Origin: a virus
Strand: one strand, 5' to 3'
Length of the DNA: 33,974 bases
Virus record (IMG/VR): IMGVR_UViG_3300035698_004594
Coordinates: 1-33,974 of that record
The notes under the pieces are model-generated. The model was not told the origin of the DNA. It was given only the letters and a program-made list of their open reading frames with translations, and did not search any database. The position numbers and the translations under genes were made by a program. Position 1 is the first letter of the stretch, and each line of letters starts with the position of its first letter. Positions 906 to 9,634 of this stretch are shown one piece after another.

Positions 906-2966
906 ATGGAAATAATCAAGGAATACGATTACAAGGACGAATTAGGCGAACTGCTCTATCAGGTGGTCAGGTATGAACCCAAAACATTTCGTCAAAGGGC
1001 TCCTGACGGCAAGGGAGGTTGGATATGGAATATCACAGGCGTACGCAAAGTAATTTACAACCTAAAAATCATTTTACAAGCCGATCCCGACGATTGGATA
1101 TTTATTGTTGAGGGAGAAAAAGACGCGGACCGGTTAATAAAAGAGGGTTTAATAGCGACAACATGCGCCGGGGGCAGTAATAAATGGGAAGAATCATATA
1201 GTTTTTTCCTCAATGACCGGAAAATTTGTATTTTACCGGATAACGACGACCCAGGCCGCTTACATGCTAAACAAGTATCCGAAAGCATATTAGATGCCGG
1301 TGGTAAGGCAAAGGTATTATCGCTGCCTGCACTGCCCGTGAAAGGCGATGTGTCCGACTGGTTAGATAAGCTCGGCGGGACAGCAACTAAACTTATACGG
1401 CTAACAGAGCAGACTGTGAATGTGGCTCCTAAGACAATTATTTTGAACGACGATCTCCCGAGTTCGGTTGCGGCAGCATTCGAGAAACAAAGTAAGGTGG
1501 CTCACCACTATAACTCTGTTGACGGATTCTCGATCTATTCTGATAATAAATATCAAATGGTCAGAGACAAAAACGAAATCGGCCTGCATATACGCAAATT
1601 CCTTGTAAAATGCAAAGTAGAAAAGCGGAAAAAGGACGGCGACGGCTGGACGACGTACAATGAAAAGTTCAAAAAGCAGTCATCAGGCTATATAAAAGAT
1701 GTTATGGGAGCATTAGCCGCGATGGACAGCGTTCATATCCTGCCGAGTAATAAGGCCGTCTGCTCATTCAGTAAAACAGTTAATCCGGAAACAACGATAG
1801 CCCTTAAAAATGGCCTGTTATGTCTCAAAAATCCAGAGCGCCCTATTGTATTGCCATTTACGCCCGATTTTTACACTTTTAACTATCTACCAGTCAAGTA
1901 CGATCCAGGACGGAAAGCCCCGCGATGGATTGAATGCCTCGACTTCTATTTTGCCGACGAAGACGATCAACCCGACACAATAGCCCATGATGTACTGCAT
2001 AGCTGGCAAAAACGATGGTTGTTGAGATATATGGAACCTCACAAGATATGCGCCCTAATAGGTGAGCCTCGATCCGGCAAAGGAACTATCGGCAGGATAA
2101 CAAAAGCCATCATTGGGCATAACAACGCCTCAGCTATAACAATAACATCACTGGCAGGCAACCACGGCCTCTATGGGTTGATGAATAAACAATTAGGTAT
2201 AATGTGGGACGCATCGGTATCAGGGCGATCAGGGGACATCTCAAAGGCTGTGGAAATACTCAAGAACATAAGCGGTCAGGACGCCATAACAGTCAATCCC
2301 AAAGGCCGGGATACTATCGATTTAGAAGTTATGAAGCTAAATATCCTAATGATAGCGAATAAAATGGCCGACCTGCGAGACAATACAGGAGCATTAGCAA
2401 GCAGATTCGCCTTCCTTGAAACAACTCATTCATTTATAGGACACGAAAATGGGAGCTTTGAAAAGGAAATTATCGACCACGAACTACCCGGAATACTGAA
2501 TTTAATATTAGCAGCGCCAAGCACGATTATCGAGCATCCAAAGAGTTGTATTATGGCGCAAGAATTCGTCGAAATGAGCAGTCCATATACTGCTTTTGCT
2601 AACGATTGTTGCGAAGTTGGAGACCTAAATAAATCAATTCCGACCGACATCTTGTGGGCTTACTATTGTGATTGGTGTACTAAATTTAATCACAAACCAC
2701 CGTCAACTCATAAATTCAAATTGGAGTTCAGTTCAGCTATTCGAGGCGTAAAAAGGAGTCGGCCAAGACTGAATTATGAGCAGAGATTAGCCCTAAGTAA
2801 TCAGCATAAACTTGACCAAAGAGCTGGACAGACCCTGACCATAAAAGAACGGGTGCAATGTTATAAAGGAATTGATATGATAGAAAACCTAAAAGGTGGC
2901 TGGGCTTCGGTAAAAGGTCAAGATAGGTCAGACTTTGGTCAGGATCATGGACAGAATCTTTATTAA
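906..2966 (+). CDS. Primase-helicase: TOPRIM domain plus SF3 (D5-like) helicase
   Basis: The 686-aa protein has an N-terminal TOPRIM fold: the glutamate motif VEGEKDA at residues 68-74 and the metal-binding DNDDPG at 112-117. A C-terminal superfamily 3 AAA+ helicase follows: Walker A GEPRSGKGT (386-394), hydrophobic strand plus acidic LGIMWDA (430-436), sensor asparagine LMIAN (481-485), and an arginine finger in SRF (499-501). No CHC2 zinc finger is visible upstream of TOPRIM, so the primase half is short for a DnaG-type enzyme. The likely role is unwinding and priming at the phage origin. AAGGA precedes the ATG. The last ~17 codons overlap the GGTCA repeat cluster, so the C-terminal tail with its repeated GQD may be a by-product of those DNA repeats. 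Confidence 0.88.
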   Translation: MEIIKEYDYKDELGELLYQVVRYEPKTFRQRAPDGKGGWIWNITGVRKVIYNLKIILQADPDDWIFIVEGEKDADRLIKEGLIATTCAGGSNKWEESYSFFLNDRKICILPDNDDPGRLHAKQVSESILDAGGKAKVLSLPALPVKGDVSDWLDKLGGTATKLIRLTEQTVNVAPKTIILNDDLPSSVAAAFEKQSKVAHHYNSVDGFSIYSDNKYQMVRDKNEIGLHIRKFLVKCKVEKRKKDGDGWTTYNEKFKKQSSGYIKDVMGALAAMDSVHILPSNKAVCSFSKTVNPETTIALKNGLLCLKNPERPIVLPFTPDFYTFNYLPVKYDPGRKAPRWIECLDFYFADEDDQPDTIAHDVLHSWQKRWLLRYMEPHKICALIGEPRSGKGTIGRITKAIIGHNNASAITITSLAGNHGLYGLMNKQLGIMWDASVSGRSGDISKAVEILKNISGQDAITVNPKGRDTIDLEVMKLNILMIANKMADLRDNTGALASRFAFLETTHSFIGHENGSFEKEIIDHELPGILNLILAAPSTIIEHPKSCIMAQEFVEMSSPYTAFANDCCEVGDLNKSIPTDILWAYYCDWCTKFNHKPPSTHKFKLEFSSAIRGVKRSRPRLNYEQRLALSNQHKLDQRAGQTLTIKERVQCYKGIDMIENLKGGWASVKGQDRSDFGQDHGQNLY

Positions 2967-3109
2967 TGTAAGTTATTATGGATAATGCTTTTATGAAATC
3001 TGGTCAGGATAGGTCAATATCTATTGTTAAAGGTAAGATATATATATATAAATATATAAAAGTGTATAGTACGGTAACAACACACTTTGTATCCTGACCA
3101 CCCTTGACC
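2916..3109. repeat. Phased GGTCA repeat cluster around an AT tract (candidate origin/operator)
   Basis: The 15-mer GGTCAAGATAGGTCA lies at 2916-2930. Its one-mismatch copy GGTCAGGATAGGTCA is at 3002-3016. A diverged inverted copy is at 3095-3109 (TGACCACCCTTGACC), and a half copy is at 2937-2951. Within units the GGTCA cores are 10 bp apart, one helical turn. TGGTCAGGAT at 3001-3010 is the exact inverse of 3091-3100. Between these arms is a 24-bp stretch of only A and T (3038-3061). Two more TGACC cores lie upstream at 2813 and 2836. Iterons flanking an easily melted tract just after a primase-helicase gene suggest a replication origin. An operator array for the following genes is the alternative. 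Confidence 0.55.
3025..3052 (+). promoter_or_regulatory. Possible sigma70-type promoter for the 3132 gene cluster
   Basis: TTGTTA at 3025-3030 and TATAAA at 3047-3052 are separated by 16 bp, inside the AT tract between the GGTCA arms. Any TA-rich run gives such a match easily, so this is weak. Its position would let whatever binds the GGTCA sites control the downstream genes. Confidence 0.3.
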
Positions 3110-3131
3110 ATAAAGATTAAGGAGAGAAAAT

Positions 3132-3458
3132 ATGTTTTTATCAGACATAAAAAACACGACCAAACCAATCCAGAACCACCATCCCGATCCCCGGCTAAAT
3201 AACCCAAAATTCAGGCACGATGTAAGACTGGTTTTTCACAACCTTAGAATCGAAAATACCGTCCGGAATTTTAAGATATACGACGGGGTTATTGACTGGA
3301 AACTTTTCGCGGCCGGTGTGCGGAATCCGACGGTCGCTGCGGTCGTTAGAATCCGGGGTTCAAAAGATACTATTCTGCTCGATTTACCAGGGTCGAATCG
3401 AGCAGAGGCAATACGGAATTTAGACGTAAGCGAATACAGTTTTGTGAGGTGGTTTTAA
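3132..3458 (+). CDS. Hypothetical protein, 108 aa
   Basis: I do not recognise this protein. It is soluble-looking, with a basic, proline- and asparagine-rich N-terminal part and a mixed alpha/beta C-terminal half, and has no membrane segment or cysteine motif. The gene is convincing because AAGGAG sits 5-10 nt before the ATG at 3132, and the stop is one base before the next start. It is the first gene after the GGTCA repeat region, so it is probably expressed early with the two small genes that follow. Confidence 0.7.
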   Translation: MFLSDIKNTTKPIQNHHPDPRLNNPKFRHDVRLVFHNLRIENTVRNFKIYDGVIDWKLFAAGVRNPTVAAVVRIRGSKDTILLDLPGSNRAEAIRNLDVSEYSFVRWF

Positions 3459-3459
3459 A

Positions 3460-3756
3460 ATGAAAACAAAAAAACAACTAACCGAGAGAGTTAAATTTTT
3501 GGAACAATGTATATCTAAAGATTCTCGACAAAATTTTCACATCAACCAGAAAAGAAAATTGTGCGAAACAATAACCGATAGAAATAAACTACTTGATAAG
3601 GCTTTGGCGGACAATAAAGCGTTGAGAGCTGAAATAATTAGGCTTAACCCTCCACATAGGCATGATCATGATTATTTTCATGACGATTGCAGTTTGTGCC
3701 AGATGGAAAAAGAGCAATACAAGCCAACAAGAATAATTTTGGAAGGTGGGAATTAA
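3460..3756 (+). CDS. Hypothetical coiled-coil protein with His/Cys cluster, 98 aa
   Basis: The N-terminal two thirds (residues ~1-62) are charged and heptad-like, consistent with a coiled coil. Residues 66-80 hold a dense set of potential metal ligands, HRHDHDYFHDDCSLC, ending in CxxC, so a zinc site is possible but unproven. A G-rich SD-like sequence (GAGGTGG) precedes the ATG. It lies one base after the preceding gene, and its 3' end provides the SD for the next gene. No family is recognised. Confidence 0.65.
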   Translation: MKTKKQLTERVKFLEQCISKDSRQNFHINQKRKLCETITDRNKLLDKALADNKALRAEIIRLNPPHRHDHDYFHDDCSLCQMEKEQYKPTRIILEGGN

Positions 3757-3757
3757 A

Positions 3758-4021
3758 ATGGAAAAAACAATATCACAGGAAAACAAAGACTTCTTCAACC
3801 TTGGATTTCTGGAAGGTAAAATTGCGAACAGATCAACCCATGCCAGGATAACGCCGGTCGATTACAGGATAAAGCGGAAAGTTACAAGAGGAAAAGGCCC
3901 CTACACAATCTTACACAGGGGCCACGATGGTCATTGGCGGGTGTTTGAGAAGTATAACACGGTTGAATCAACTCTTGCCCGTCTAATGGTTCTGATTGGG
4001 TACGGAGCCCTACTTGAGTAA
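3758..4021 (+). CDS. Hypothetical protein, 87 aa
   Basis: This is a small basic alpha/beta protein of unknown family. I chose the ATG at 3758 rather than an in-frame GTG at 3746, because GGAAGG (3741-3746) would overlap the GTG but is well placed for the ATG. The last 12 nt overlap tail-to-tail with the minus-strand regulator gene (4010-4171), so this is the last gene of the rightward early group. Confidence 0.62.
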   Translation: MEKTISQENKDFFNLGFLEGKIANRSTHARITPVDYRIKRKVTRGKGPYTILHRGHDGHWRVFEKYNTVESTLARLMVLIGYGALLE

Positions 4022-4442: not shown

Positions 4443-4515
4443 ATAGACTTATAGCACGAAGTTTTTTTATAATTTCATAGTTAAAGTTTTAATGTTATTG
4501 TGCTGATAGTGGGTT

Positions 4516-4953
4516 ATGGCGAAAAAGACAAAAACAAAGCCCAAACACGCCGGAGGACGTCCCACTAGATATAAGACTGAATATGCCGATCAGGCGTATA
4601 ATTATTGCCTTTTGAAAGCCACGGACGCTAATTTAGCAGAGTTCTTTGGTGTTTCGGAACAAACAATTAACTCTTGGAAGAAATTACATCCAAAGTTTAT
4701 TGAGTCTATAAAAGCAGGTAAGGATATTGCAGACGCCCAGGTTGCAAAGAAATTACATGAGCGGGCGACTGGCTACTCTTGTAAAGAGACGAAAGTCTTT
4801 TGTGATAAGGGAGTTATAACAAAATGTGAAGTAATGAAGCATTATCCCCCTGACACGGCGGCCGCGTTTATCTGGCTCAAGAACCGTGCTGGCTGGCGAG
4901 ACAAGCAGGAACATTTATTGGCTGGCTCTTTGGAGGTAGTCTTGAAAAACTAA
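4516..4953 (+). CDS. terS: Terminase small subunit
   Basis: The 145-aa protein has a basic N-terminus with the motif GGRPTRYK (residues 13-20). A helix-turn-helix follows in ATDANLAEFFGVSEQTINSW (35-54), as in phage small terminase proteins that recognise the packaging site. The C-terminal half contains HYPPDTAAAFIWLKNR, which recurs in this TerS type. It lies directly before terL with a 1-nt overlap (TAATG), the classical order. The SD before the ATG is weak (GTGGG), which may keep the product low. It should act in the cytoplasm as an oligomer presenting concatemeric DNA to TerL. Confidence 0.85.
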   Translation: MAKKTKTKPKHAGGRPTRYKTEYADQAYNYCLLKATDANLAEFFGVSEQTINSWKKLHPKFIESIKAGKDIADAQVAKKLHERATGYSCKETKVFCDKGVITKCEVMKHYPPDTAAAFIWLKNRAGWRDKQEHLLAGSLEVVLKN

Positions 4954-7241
4954 TGGTTAAAAGAACACAAATAGAATTACCCCATATGTTCGACCTTCGC
5001 GACTATCAACAGCCGTTGCATAGCTACATGGTAGCTCCCAATGAGCGCACTAAGCGGCTTAAAGACCGGCGAGCAGGTAAGAGGGCGGCTATTGTCTGGC
5101 ATCGGAGGACTGGTAAGGATAAGACCTGCTTTGCACAGGAGATCGTTCCGGCTATGTTTGAGCGTGTTGGTGTATATCATTATTATTTTCCTACAATGGC
5201 CGATGGCCGCAAGATTTTGTGGAACGGCATTGACAAGGACGGATTCCCGCTTATTGACCACTTCCCAAAGGAGTTGATAGCTGAGAAGCACACCCAGGAT
5301 ATGACTATTAAGGCTAAAAACGGCTCATTGTTCCAGATTGTTGGCTCGGATCGAGTCGAGAGTGTCGGAACTAACCCGGTCGGTTGTGTATTCAGTGAGT
5401 TTAGCAAGCAAAACCCTCGATGGTGGGACTTAGTACGTCCTATCCTGGCGGAGAACGAGGGTTGGGCAATATTCAATTGGACGCCGCGAGGTAAGAACCA
5501 CGCTTACAGGCTTGACAGGATGGCCAGGACTAACCCTAAATGGTTTTATGAGCTTCTAACCGTCGATGATACTAACCACGCTATCAGCCAGGAGGCTATT
5601 GACGAGGACAGGGCGTCTGGTATGAGCGAGGAGATGATTCAGCAAGAATACTATTGTAGTTACAATCTTGGCGTCGAGGGTGCGTATTATGGCAGGATCA
5701 TCGGTAAACTGTGGGAAAGTGGCCAGATTGCTAATGTTCCCATCGATCCTAACGCTTTGATTCATACCGCTTGGGATCTTGGGTATGGTGATAGCACCGC
5801 GATTTGGTTCTATCAGCTTTGCGGCCAGGAGATCCACCTCATTGACTTTTACGAGAATCACGGCGAAGCTATGCGGCATTATATCGAGATATTGAAAAAT
5901 AAAGATTATCTATATGGCAATCATTACGCCCCGCATGATATCAACCATGGCTCCATGAGCACAGGTGAGACGTTAATGGAGACGGCGAGGGACCTTGGTA
6001 TCATATTCGATATGTTACCACGCGAGAAGATAGTTGATGACGGTATCGAGCGGACACGAAGTATCTTTCATAAGTGTTGGTTCGATGCTGAGCGATGTAA
6101 AAAGGGTATTGACGCACTTGAGAACTATCACGCCGAGTATAGAGAGCGGCTCGATGTCTACGCAACCAGGCCGGTTCATGATTGGTCGTGTTTAGTTGCA
6201 GGTACTAATATAAAGACAGATAAAGGAGAGGTTCCAATTGAGCAGGTTGTAATTGGTGACTCAGTACTTACGCCTACTGGTTACAAAGAGGTATTGTTTA
6301 GTGGTTTAATAAAACAAGCTGAATTACTTTTGGAAATAACTACAAATAAAGGCAGAAAGTTGATTTGTACGCCAGAACATAAGATATTTTTTAATAATAA
6401 CATTGACATAGCAGATGCGTTGCGGTATAATGACATATTGTTTAAGAATACAATATGGAGACGATTACTATGGAGACGATTAAGTTTAACGGATACGAAT
6501 TTGGGCTTCAAAGAGGCTATTTCAAAAGGATTGGGCCAAAAACACTTCATCAGGCAGTGTGGGAGTACTATAATGGACCAGTTCAAGCGGGATATCAAAT
6601 CCACCATAAAGATAGTAACCCAAAGAATAATGCTATCGAGAACTTGGAAATATTTACAAAGAAAGAACATGATCGCTTCCATTCCAAATGTAAGTATCAA
6701 AAATGGGTGGGAAGTGACGGAAACATTAAGCAACTTGAAAAAGCAAGAAGCAAAGCGAATGAATGGCACGCAACGTCAGAGGGCAAGAAATTCCATTCAT
6801 CTCTCGGCAAATATACTTGGAAATATAGAAAGCGGTTTGTCAGAGAATGTGATATTTGCCACAAAGAATATACGTGTGCCTATCCAAAGAGGTCGAATTT
6901 TTGTTCGGAAGTATGCAAAGCAGCAAACAGAAGATTACAAGGTAAAGATAGGACAAGTCGTACTTGCATCATTTGCAAGTCTGTGTTTAAGACTAATAAA
7001 TATGGTAAGACCAGAACGTGTAGCCCAAGTTGTTCGGCTAAACTACAAAAACAAACCAAAAAATGTCTATGATTTAACAGTTGAAGATGACCATTGTTAC
7101 TATGCAAATGGACTTTTAGTTAGTAATTCCCACGCCGCGGACTCATTTAGGTACCTATCTGCCTCGTTACCTTATAGCGATTCAGCAGGTCGGGCAACGA
7201 AACAGAGTTGGCGTGAGACTAAAGAAAGGATGTTTTGTTAG
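4953..7241 (+). CDS. terL: Terminase large subunit containing an intein
   Basis: The precursor is 762 aa; removing the 313-aa intein (residues 413-725) leaves a 449-aa TerL, a normal length. ATPase signatures are Walker A WHRRTGKDK (49-57) and a Walker-B-like strand GCVFSEF (144-150, glutamate 149). The RNase-H-like nuclease has AWDLGYGDS with Asp275, HYAPHD (Asp329) and, after splicing, HDWS-SHAADSFRYL with Asp730. The intein sits exactly in this last acidic motif, so unspliced protein should lack an intact nuclease site, while splicing at Cys413/Ser726 restores it. TerL powers packaging of DNA through the portal and cuts the concatemer. It overlaps terS by one base and the portal gene follows immediately. 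A second gene (HNH endonuclease) lies inside it in another frame. Confidence 0.93.
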   Translation: MVKRTQIELPHMFDLRDYQQPLHSYMVAPNERTKRLKDRRAGKRAAIVWHRRTGKDKTCFAQEIVPAMFERVGVYHYYFPTMADGRKILWNGIDKDGFPLIDHFPKELIAEKHTQDMTIKAKNGSLFQIVGSDRVESVGTNPVGCVFSEFSKQNPRWWDLVRPILAENEGWAIFNWTPRGKNHAYRLDRMARTNPKWFYELLTVDDTNHAISQEAIDEDRASGMSEEMIQQEYYCSYNLGVEGAYYGRIIGKLWESGQIANVPIDPNALIHTAWDLGYGDSTAIWFYQLCGQEIHLIDFYENHGEAMRHYIEILKNKDYLYGNHYAPHDINHGSMSTGETLMETARDLGIIFDMLPREKIVDDGIERTRSIFHKCWFDAERCKKGIDALENYHAEYRERLDVYATRPVHDWSCLVAGTNIKTDKGEVPIEQVVIGDSVLTPTGYKEVLFSGLIKQAELLLEITTNKGRKLICTPEHKIFFNNNIDIADALRYNDILFKNTIWRRLLWRRLSLTDTNLGFKEAISKGLGQKHFIRQCGSTIMDQFKRDIKSTIKIVTQRIMLSRTWKYLQRKNMIASIPNVSIKNGWEVTETLSNLKKQEAKRMNGTQRQRARNSIHLSANILGNIESGLSENVIFATKNIRVPIQRGRIFVRKYAKQQTEDYKVKIGQVVLASFASLCLRLINMVRPERVAQVVRLNYKNKPKNVYDLTVEDDHCYYANGLLVSNSHAADSFRYLSASLPYSDSAGRATKQSWRETKERMFC
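6455..6484 (+). repeat. Tandem 15-nt duplication at the endonuclease start
   Basis: ATGGAGACGATTA occurs at 6455-6467 and again at 6470-6482, period 15. As 15 is a multiple of three, it is neutral in both frames: the endonuclease reads METIT then METIK, and the intein reads WRRLL then WRRLS. It creates a second ATG with GGAG (6457-6460) nine bases upstream, so the duplication probably built the ribosome binding site. Confidence 0.75.
6470..7072 (+). CDS. HNH homing endonuclease encoded out of frame inside the TerL intein
   Basis: Residue numbers count from an alternative ATG at 6455. I prefer the ATG at 6470 (Met6, 200 aa) because GGAG lies 9 nt upstream. The HNH core is YQIHHKDSNPKNNAIENLEI then EHDRFH (His50/51, Asn63, His72), matching phage HNH_3-type homing endonucleases. 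Two C4 zinc modules follow: C132/C135/C150/C154 and C171/C174/C189/C193. The frame is shifted by two bases relative to terL, which stays open throughout. The stop (7070-7072) falls inside the intein VYDL block. It should nick or cut an intein-less terL to spread the element. Translation must start internally on terL mRNA. In known inteins the endonuclease is normally fused in frame or freestanding. Confidence 0.88.
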   Translation: METIKFNGYEFGLQRGYFKRIGPKTLHQAVWEYYNGPVQAGYQIHHKDSNPKNNAIENLEIFTKKEHDRFHSKCKYQKWVGSDGNIKQLEKARSKANEWHATSEGKKFHSSLGKYTWKYRKRFVRECDICHKEYTCAYPKRSNFCSEVCKAANRRLQGKDRTSRTCIICKSVFKTNKYGKTRTCSPSCSAKLQKQTKKCL

Positions 7242-9179
7242 ATGGCATCAGAAAAAGACCGTAAACAAGATTTCGAGGCAGCACACAAGCAAGCATGGGC
7301 CGGATGGTCTACTTCTCAGGCTCATAGCAAGGACGATCTGAAGATATATAACGGCGATCCTTGGACGAGTGCCCAGCGTAATCGGTTCAAGATGCAAGGT
7401 CGCGAGGTTATGAGCTTTCCTATGATCCGCCGTAATATCAAGTTAATCAGTGGTTATCAGCGGAAAAATAGACTATCGACGAAGTTTGAGCCTCAGGAGG
7501 GTTCGGACGATGCTACTGCTCAGTTGTTCACGCAGCTTGGCACCTGGGCTATGAATCGCGGCAATGGCCATAATATCCAATCGGATGCGTTCGAGAGTTC
7601 GTTAATCACTGGCATAAACCTGGTTAATGTTTATAACGACCGGAACCAGAACACTTTCTTTGATAGATTCTATTATAATCAGTTCTTACTTGACCCGAAC
7701 TTTAGTTATCGGGACCTTAGTGACTGTCATTATGGGTTGCTTCGCAAGTATATCACCAAAGACGATGCAAAGATGTTGCTTCCTGACAAAGAGAGGTTCA
7801 TCGATAAGCTCGACGATAACGCAGTTATTGATGCGAGGTTCCCTAATTTCCTTGCTCCGACGTTATTTGGTGAGAAGTTACTCGCTTATGACGAATGGCA
7901 GAGTCGGACGACCAAAGAAGAGATCGTTATAATTAATCGCCAAAGCGGTGAGGAGAAGGTTTGGAAGGGCAAGAAAGCTGATTTAGAGATATTGTTCTAT
8001 CAGAACCCGCAGATTGCACAATCTCACACGGTTATAACTCGCAGGATTGCAACGGTTGAGGCTACAATGTATCTTCAGGACCAGGAAGTGTATCATGGTA
8101 TTGACCCGTTTAACATTGGCGATTTCTCGTTTTCTCCGGTCATTGCCTTCTGGCACCCTGAGTCTGATCGTATGGAAGATAAGCTTCAAAGTGTTGTTCA
8201 TGGTATGGCTGACGCACAACGGGCCTCTGACAAGCGGATGATGGCTATGATGGCACAGTTTGAACAGCAGATAGGCGGCGGCATGGACTTTGAGGAAGGT
8301 TCTTTGGTTGATGATGAAGATGCTTTCGCTACTGGCAACAAGCCAAGACAGTTCAAGAAAGACGCTCTTGCCCAGAACAGGGCACGGGATCGGCAGGTTC
8401 AGGGTATCGATGCTTCACAGTTCCAGCTTCACCAGCTATTTAATGAGCAGATGATTAAGAGTGTGAATATTAACGAGGAACTTCTCGGCTCTACTCAGGG
8501 CAATCCTCAGATTGCTGGCGTTCTTGCACAATTCAGGGCTGGCCAGGCGTTGGTTGGTCTTCGAGACTTGTTTGACAATCTATCGCTGGCACAAAAGACG
8601 ATAGGTGGCAAGTTACTCAAGTTAATGCAGCAATACGCACCGAGCAGGGTACAAAGGATAACAAGTAAGCCGCCAACTAAAGAGTTCTATACCCGCAAGT
8701 TTGGCGAGTTCGACACCGTTGTTACCGAGGGCATGGAGACTGACTCACAACGCAACTTATTCTATTCTGAGCTGATTAATCTTAAACAGATGGGTGCTTC
8801 GATGGGTGATCCGGTCCCGTTTAGTTGGTCATTTGTGCTCAAGAACGCCCCGGTTGCTATGCGAGGTGAGTTAATGGAGGAGATATTAAAGAATGAGAAA
8901 CAGGCGGCTGAAGGTAAGCAGAAACAAGAGCAGATGCAGCAACACCAAATGCAACTTGACTTAGAGCTTGCAAAGGGTAATATACTGGCTAATCGTGGTA
9001 TCGCGGAGGCTCAGCGGGCTAAAGCGGTTGAAGATCAGAGCGATGCTGCTTTGAATCGTGTTAAGACGTTGGCAGAGATCAATGATATTGGTCGAGCGAG
9101 GGTAATCGAGTTAGCACAGTTAGGTTTGCAGTTTGAGCAATTATCGCAACAAAATCAGGAAGTAAAGGCAAAATCATGA
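7242..9179 (+). CDS. Portal protein, P22-like
   Basis: The 645-aa protein immediately follows terL. Its N-terminal half (KIYNGDPW, MSFPMIRRNIKLISGYQRKN) fits the P22-type portal family of podoviruses, and so does the size. The C-terminal ~110 residues are a long Gln/Glu/Ala-rich helix (from about residue 550, with repeated QMQQHQ-type stretches), as expected for a portal barrel or crown. It should form the dodecameric ring at one capsid vertex, docking TerL during packaging and the adaptor and tail afterwards. The start ATG directly abuts the terL stop (TAGATG), and GGA-type SD bases lie in the terL end. Its own stop overlaps the next start (ATGA). Confidence 0.85.
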   Translation: MASEKDRKQDFEAAHKQAWAGWSTSQAHSKDDLKIYNGDPWTSAQRNRFKMQGREVMSFPMIRRNIKLISGYQRKNRLSTKFEPQEGSDDATAQLFTQLGTWAMNRGNGHNIQSDAFESSLITGINLVNVYNDRNQNTFFDRFYYNQFLLDPNFSYRDLSDCHYGLLRKYITKDDAKMLLPDKERFIDKLDDNAVIDARFPNFLAPTLFGEKLLAYDEWQSRTTKEEIVIINRQSGEEKVWKGKKADLEILFYQNPQIAQSHTVITRRIATVEATMYLQDQEVYHGIDPFNIGDFSFSPVIAFWHPESDRMEDKLQSVVHGMADAQRASDKRMMAMMAQFEQQIGGGMDFEEGSLVDDEDAFATGNKPRQFKKDALAQNRARDRQVQGIDASQFQLHQLFNEQMIKSVNINEELLGSTQGNPQIAGVLAQFRAGQALVGLRDLFDNLSLAQKTIGGKLLKLMQQYAPSRVQRITSKPPTKEFYTRKFGEFDTVVTEGMETDSQRNLFYSELINLKQMGASMGDPVPFSWSFVLKNAPVAMRGELMEEILKNEKQAAEGKQKQEQMQQHQMQLDLELAKGNILANRGIAEAQRAKAVEDQSDAALNRVKTLAEINDIGRARVIELAQLGLQFEQLSQQNQEVKAKS

Positions 9180-9634
9180 GAAAATCTAAGATAACACACG
9201 GAGACTTCCGTAACTGGTCAATGGATGTGCTTTATGAGCAGATCGATAAGATCATTAATGCTAAGCAGGCTCGTCGCACGCCATATTACATCATGGCAAG
9301 GGTGGAACGTGGGTACAGTGGAACTCCGGTCAAGAACTCGAACCATATATTGTCGGGTGACGTCGTTGCAGCTAAGAAGACTAAGGACATGGACCTATCT
9401 AAGAAGGTAGTAATGAGCAGTAGGATCGTTATCATGGACGCTCCGCCGATTGTTCCTATGTTGAATACAATGTTGTGGAAGGTTGACAATGTTAGAGGTT
9501 CCATTGATCCTGTGTATATCTTGCCGGTAGATACTCCGGTCGATTCTGACGTTGATATGACCGAGTGTAGTGAGTTAGTTAACAAGAGCGGCCAGGGTAT
9601 GCCGCTTGCATATAATAAAGTTGAGAGGAATTAA
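9176..9634 (+). CDS. Hypothetical protein after portal, 152 aa
   Basis: I recognise no family. The N-terminal part is basic and helical (HGDFRNWSMDVLYEQIDKII), the middle has alternating charged and hydrophobic beta-like segments, and the C-terminus is acidic then polar. No signal or membrane segment is seen. The start overlaps the portal stop by 4 nt (ATGA), indicating coupled translation with a virion gene, so a head-assembly accessory role is possible. Confidence 0.72.
   Translation: MRKSKITHGDFRNWSMDVLYEQIDKIINAKQARRTPYYIMARVERGYSGTPVKNSNHILSGDVVAAKKTKDMDLSKKVVMSSRIVIMDAPPIVPMLNTMLWKVDNVRGSIDPVYILPVDTPVDSDVDMTECSELVNKSGQGMPLAYNKVERN

Follow-up and report, generated by a model that had tools for sequence, protein, structure and literature searches.

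The locus described here raises the question of how one stretch of phage DNA comes to encode an intein and, in a different reading frame of the same letters, a complete endonuclease, and whether such an arrangement is kept by selection or is an accident. The window (one strand of IMG/VR record IMGVR_UViG_3300035698_004594, positions 1 to 33,974, 33,974 nucleotides) contains on its plus strand an open reading frame of 762 amino acids at 4953-7241, with no internal stops, which matches the PHROG terminase large subunit (TerL) with E 2e-21. The gene lies between that for the terminase small subunit (4516-4953) and that for a P22-like portal (7242-9179), and its TerL has a 77% identical homologue without an intein, in locus L028. 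Upstream of the terminase genes, the region 78-2966 encodes a DNA methyltransferase and then a primase-like protein, while the remainder of the window is a structural region for head and tail in which few families can be recognised. The features of the gene are collected in Table 1.

Table 1. Features of the interrupted terL gene and the nested HNH gene (positions in the window), with related loci of apparently split layout.
Feature	Position	Strand	Basis or remark
TerL N-extein, residues 1-412	4953..6188	+	ATPase and most of nuclease domain; ends HDWS; PHROG
Complete intein, residues 413-725 (313 aa)	6189..7127	+	Cys1 to terminal Asn, +1 Ser
Hint N-part, intein residues 1-88	6189..6452	+	Blocks A and B, TPEH
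Insert in intein frame	6453..7019	+	Without recognisable domain; disordered; open
Hint C-part, intein residues 278-313	7020..7127	+	Block F VYDLTVEDDH, block G LLVSN
TerL C-extein and stop	7128..7241	+	SHAADSFRY..., last acidic motif of nuclease domain
TAA closing HNH frame upstream of start	6443..6445	+	Sequence
GGAG Shine-Dalgarno-like core	6457..6460	+	9 nt before ATG 6470; within 15-bp tandem duplication
HNH endonuclease gene	6470..7072	+	-1 (= +2) frame relative to intein; HNH_3, PHROG_15471, AlphaFold (AF2), dN/dS
HNH core	6602..6670	+	His45-His46, Asn58, His67 (numbered from ATG 6470)
Two C4 zinc modules	6848..7033	+	Alignments; second overlaps start of Hint C-part in other frame
HNH stop TGA	7070..7072	+	Read out of TAT GAT, which encodes Tyr-Asp in intein block F
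Apparently split TerL inteins: L004, L005, L121, L136, L137, L144, L145, L151, L220, L227, L240, L245, L253 (also L112, L251)			

The reading frame 4953-7241 encodes a TerL interrupted by a complete intein, which would be removed by protein splicing. The Pfam Intein_splicing family matches the interval 6189-7127 with E 3e-14 (E 3e-13 for the whole reading frame). The intein is in frame with TerL, with Cys413 as its first residue, Asn725 as its last and Ser726 at the +1 position; it opens with CLVAGT, contains the TPEH and VYDLTVEDDH motifs, and closes with VYDLTVEDDHCYYANGLLVSN, followed by Ser. A model was generated using AlphaFold (AF2) from an alignment of 40 sequences, drawn from the window and from the loci of the survey described below. 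In this model, intein residues 1-88 and 278-313 come together in a β-rich Hint fold with pLDDT mostly 91-98 (93-98 for the N-terminal part, with 75 in its last block, residues 81-90, and 91-96 for the C-terminal part). The insert read in the intein frame has a mean pLDDT of about 40-70, mostly low. A Foldseek search with the model matches the gp41-1, MsmDnaB and Mtu RecA inteins, the gp41-1 split intein being the closest to the Hint part of the window.

Within the insert, the -1 frame encodes an HNH protein with both a catalytic core and DNA-binding modules, which would be expected to cleave DNA. HNH_3 matches the nested frame 6455-7072 with E 3e-16 and PHROG_15471 matches with E 2e-31, and its AF2 model has a mean pLDDT of 92.9. 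Alignment shows the residues of the HNH core to be invariant in 37 homologues and the C4 zinc residues nearly so, those of the first module being invariant or nearly invariant. The only PDB sequence matching the HNH profile is I-HmuI (E 9e-5). Foldseek with the HNH model gave no significant match (best E 0.07, with I-HmuI second), so that the family assignment rests on sequence profiles. The third frame has 23 stops across the domain, including a TAA at 6481, and an open frame on the minus strand (6281-6769) was treated as mechanical. An earlier, sequence-only reading of this DNA had described a complete intein in one open frame, delimited by the same residues and blocks, with an HNH enzyme carrying two C4 modules in a shifted frame at the endonuclease insertion point and stops in the third frame; the profile matches, the predicted Hint fold and the stops just counted confirm that description.

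The HNH frame opens at 6446, the TAA that closes it lying 9 nt before an ATG at 6455. This ATG belongs to a 15-bp in-frame tandem duplication (6455-6484, ATGGAGACGATTACT/ATGGAGACGATTAAG), which places two ATGs at the start of the gene, the first copy providing the GGAG ahead of the second ATG. The ATG at 6470 is the more likely start, given that homologues align from 6470, that a GGAG lies upstream of it, and that the ATG at 6455 is part of a duplication absent from L002, the closest relative of the window, which comes from another metagenome.

The arrangement is not peculiar to the window. A survey was made of IMG/VR, GTDB genomes and GenBank phages using the HNH protein alone as query, which is blind to frame; loci from a TerL search were added, and every locus was typed with profiles of the Hint N- and C-parts. 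This gave 138 distinct HNH homologues (those with less than 80% amino acid identity), of which 98 are nested in an intein but out of its frame, with 93 in the -1 frame and five in the other alternative frame (L139, L155, L181, L188 and L246). A further 15 lie between apparently split intein halves, 23 are free-standing, and two are in other nestings. On this typing, the out-of-frame arrangement of the window is common to about a hundred distinct phage relatives, which makes it much more widespread than the sequence-only reading was aware. That reading took the same HNH in frame with its intein as the sign of an indel or an assembly error here; this was seen in none of the 138 homologues, although the typing profiles came from the nested set, so that distant in-frame cases could escape while an enclosing in-frame ORF would be listed. 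The -1-frame nesting recurs in a relative of 79% identity in a different metagenome and in isolate or complete genomes, namely Tetrasphaera phage TJE1, Acinetobacter phage Highwayman and Rhodobacteraceae phage LS06-2018-MD07, and is therefore not an assembly error. In these three phages the HNH gene is unannotated, and only a long TerL is given.

By family assignment, the hosts of these HNH genes are nearly all TerL: the N-exteins belong to Terminase_6N in 36 of 85 cases and to Terminase_3 in 32 of 85, with one methylase. The sites of insertion are concentrated at the last acidic motif of the TerL nuclease domain, although some lie elsewhere, as in L022, near Walker B. Five nested loci (L196, L180, L195, L190 and L185) are weakly typed or oddly placed, with other sites or a degenerate Hint domain. 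Among the 15 relatives of split layout, TerL with Hint-N, the HNH gene, and Hint-C with the C-extein form separate ORFs; several of these are in Bacillota or gut phages, and they are candidates for new natural split inteins. A FastTree phylogeny of the HNH proteins (138 rows, with many weak forks) requires about 25 changes among arrangement states, with no direction readable, and at least 8 changes of the -1-frame nested state are forced by the well-supported branches alone.

The two overlapping frames have diverged very differently. Between the window and L002, the HNH frame has 78% amino acid identity, with dN 0.133, dS 1.61 and dN/dS 0.083, and the differences fall at codon positions 1/2/3 in the numbers 36/20/81. 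The same DNA read in the intein frame has dN/dS 1.19 and 54% identity, the low constraint being partly a mechanical result of the overlap with a conserved HNH frame. Elsewhere, the identities for this pair are 66% for Hint-N, 74% for Hint-C and 52.5% for TerL. Other pairs have HNH-frame dN/dS below 0.5 and a median host-frame dN/dS of 1.06 (132 pairs), with dS saturated in many. The conclusion is that the insert behaves in evolution as an HNH gene, and that the intein frame is neutral apart from staying open; the separate evolution envisaged in the sequence-only reading is visible in the comparison of the two frames.

Whether this openness is itself selected requires more care. The sequence-only reading had put the probability of such a stop-free run at 1 in 7,000, and had concluded that openness is likely to be selected. 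That figure is too extreme for a single locus. When the HNH protein is held fixed and its own synonymous codons are shuffled, the intein frame is open in 3.8% of trials (P = 0.04), and the value is 0.057 with the codon usage of the window phage and 0.006 with that of free-standing HNHs. The values for the window are this high because the intein frame, as it lies relative to the HNH frame, is intrinsically stop-poor, the HNH family having about three times fewer stops when read one base ahead than when read two bases ahead. The openness of the window locus taken alone could therefore be luck (P about 0.04-0.06), and here the earlier conclusion falls short.

At the level of the family it stands: selection keeps the intein frame open. 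Each of 82 distinct, fully typed -1-frame nested HNHs has no stop in the intein frame, compared with a mean of 6.65 stops in the corresponding frame of the 40 non-nested relatives, none of which is open; the nested class is defined partly by openness, so that the non-nested group serves to calibrate stop density and is no independent test. Under the codon usage of the TerL in the same phage, the prediction is 4.26 stops per gene, and the summed log10 P(open) over 89 loci is -176. For the five loci that use the other frame, the expectation is 7 to 17 stops and the actual number is zero, and chance is a much poorer explanation of openness there than in the -1 frame. It is worth adding that a Met codon followed by A, which creates a stop, occurs in 0 of 144 cases in the nested -1-frame HNHs and in 37 of 105 in their non-nested relatives. 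The overlap is thus a constraint on the HNH protein too, though this bias follows from openness.

The alleles without the intein provide clues as to how it spreads. Four terL genes are uninterrupted at the insertion site (L028 HDWASHGADAFRY, L029 HNWASHPSDAFRY, L030 HDWSSHGADSMRY and L031 HDLWSHGADAIRT), with a seamless junction of the pattern HDW(S/A)-SHGAD(A/S)(F/M)RY. The closest TerL to that of the window, L028, has no intein, and L002, in which TerL is only 52.5% identical, has the intein with its 78% identical HNH. Presence of the intein is thus discordant with TerL similarity, which is the pattern expected of a mobile element, and together with the intein-less alleles it indicates mobility, presumably by homing. 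Acinetobacter BP10 was considered as the empty allele of Highwayman and rejected: the HNHs match (107/209 residues identical) but there is no close similarity between the TerLs. L031 and L097 have inteins at another, N-terminal site in TerL (1542-3945 and 1004-3290, respectively), in which the insert is in frame and looks LAGLIDADG-like by eye, with no profile; as a control, the other frames of these two inteins are full of stops.

The same data bear on the proposal that the HNH protein is mainly a partner of TerL in DNA packaging, with a role like that in HK97, rather than a homing enzyme. HNH proteins that act in packaging are known (Kala et al., 2014, as cited in PMC10448857), and a role of this kind would fit both the near-exclusive choice of TerL as host and the free-standing relatives, in which the HNH gene adjoins an intact terL or terS/terL. 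We consider it improbable, because the close relatives L028-L031 have an intact terL with no HNH at the site, the distribution is patchy and discordant with TerL similarity, the homing enzyme I-HmuI gives the best match to the profile, and the gene is nested in a selfish element.

A second question is how the HNH protein would be made. In the nested set of 98, the stretch of open HNH frame ahead of the start codon has a median length of 4 codons. The start is ATG in 92 members, and a Shine-Dalgarno core precedes it in 48, whereas 19% of the remaining ATGs in these ORFs have one. This short upstream opening, the ATG starts and the Shine-Dalgarno enrichment favour internal initiation of the HNH gene over frameshifting. 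In 41 of the 94 nested -1-frame cases the HNH stop is built, as in the window, from the aromatic-Asp/Asn codons of block F, the remaining stops being close by (median 20 residues before the intein end). It has to be asked whether the sole product is instead a Hint-N/HNH fusion that arises through -1 ribosomal frameshifting, as might be supposed from the location of 93 of the 98 in the -1 frame and from a few loci, for example L107 and L168, in which the HNH frame is long open upstream. This is very unlikely: the TAA at 6443-6445 closes the HNH frame and so argues against such a fusion in the window, the features of the starts just described speak against it in the family, five loci use the other frame, and stop density accounts for the frame preference. 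Programmed -1 frameshifting is ruled out for most members of the family by the median opening of 4 codons.

Removal of the insert at the RNA level, as a group I or group II intron with an HNH gene in which the intein frame is never translated, has a certain appeal, given that group I introns often carry phage HNH genes and that the closest solved HNH by sequence, I-HmuI, is intron-encoded. A search of 4500-9500 with the Rfam group I and group II families gave no match, even at E <= 1. An intron also has no need of an open frame, yet one is kept in every nested copy, and the Hint C-part overlaps the 3' end of the HNH gene and so leaves no room for the 3' structure of an intron, all of which makes this reading barely credible. 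Least credible of all is that the insert is the debris of a decayed intein, its once in-frame endonuclease shifted by indels or assembly error: endonuclease loss is common in the intein life cycle and two junction indels would produce the same picture at a single locus, but decay and assembly error are refuted for the family by the low dN/dS of the HNH frame, the invariant or nearly invariant catalytic and first-module zinc residues, and the same layout at 93 distinct -1-frame loci, isolate phages included, with no in-frame relatives.

We therefore regard it as highly likely that the locus is a mobile TerL intein with a homing endonuclease overprinted in the -1 frame at the normal insertion loop. 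On this mechanism, a ribosome starting at terL would read the insert in the 'wrong' frame, giving a disordered loop of about 190 residues; the Hint domain would close around this loop and splice itself out, restoring TerL. A second initiation in the same mRNA, at the HNH start, would yield the endonuclease as a separate protein. The HNH would then cut intein-less terL at the insertion site, as suggested by the empty alleles, the patchy distribution and the discordant similarity, and repair would copy the whole unit of intein and HNH gene. In the HNH frame, selection would act on the amino acid sequence, whereas across the insert the intein frame would be selected for nothing beyond freedom from stops. 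The -1 arrangement would be favoured because the HNH family read one base ahead has about a third as many stops as when read two bases ahead, and because the HNH can take its stop from block F.

The nearest known case is the ShiLan domain, in which out-of-frame HNH genes are found in phage DNA methylases (Arsenault, Gosselin and Gogarten, 2025; PMC11855218), with a further hidden HNH of this kind in phage Applejack (PMC12613952). Like ShiLan, the window has an HNH gene in another frame of a phage gene; in both, the host frame is free of stops and its product is disordered. The ShiLan authors did not find a splicing domain and proposed that the insert stays in the methylase (PMC11855218); in contrast, the HNH of the window is surrounded by a complete Hint domain and the host is the essential TerL. 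A ShiLan-like methylase case, L018, was met in the HNH survey. The sequence-only reading knew of no named class for the arrangement. For inteins we likewise met with no previous account of an out-of-frame endonuclease in the open-access literature, a search that covered few subscription journals and leaves absence unproven, but for genes without inteins the ShiLan HNHs precede it.

Large inteins with an in-frame homing endonuclease include PI-SceI and the Hint-Hop inteins of crAss-like TerL (PMC7886860), and the endonuclease is taken up at the canonical dorsal insertion loop of the Hint domain (PMC6801210). The window has a Hint domain with an endonuclease at this same loop, but in the large inteins the endonuclease forms part of the intein protein as one of its domains, whereas here it occupies a separate, -1 frame. 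With I-HmuI and the free-standing HNH homing endonucleases of phages it shares the HNH profile match, and it has free-standing relatives beside terL; I-HmuI is encoded in a group I intron, while the HNH of the window is overprinted and carried by an intein.

The fractured genes that Dassa and colleagues reportedly described in 2009 (as cited in PMC10448857) are split inteins whose two halves are separated by an endonuclease gene of its own. The window resembles them in that the endonuclease is a separate gene at the insertion loop, and 15 relatives are in a split terL. It differs in that the intein frame is continuous, so that cis-splicing is expected, and in that the endonuclease overlaps rather than separates two genes. 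The related HNHs between apparently split halves imply that the nested class intergrades with this split-intein arrangement. Tentatively, and with rather more reserve than for the locus itself, we suggest that inteins with an overprinted endonuclease could be a large unrecognised class, standard for this HNH family, which has arisen repeatedly (two frames, many changes in the tree) and is intermediate between free-standing endonucleases and split-intein fractured genes, since a single stop in the insert would convert a cis-intein to a split one. Many of the long inserts in phage inteins in which no endonuclease is recognised may hide such genes.

The arrangement offers a testable route towards natural split inteins, which are widely used tools, and a Hint domain carrying a loop of some 190 residues under little or no amino acid constraint is a natural experiment on loop tolerance. 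It is also a warning for annotation pipelines, which missed the HNH in three phage genomes. Overprinting would free the endonuclease for expression, timing and evolution apart from splicing. Compared with the known systems, it would be a third way to join protein splicing and DNA mobility, by two overlapping genes, which are neither a fusion nor a split gene.
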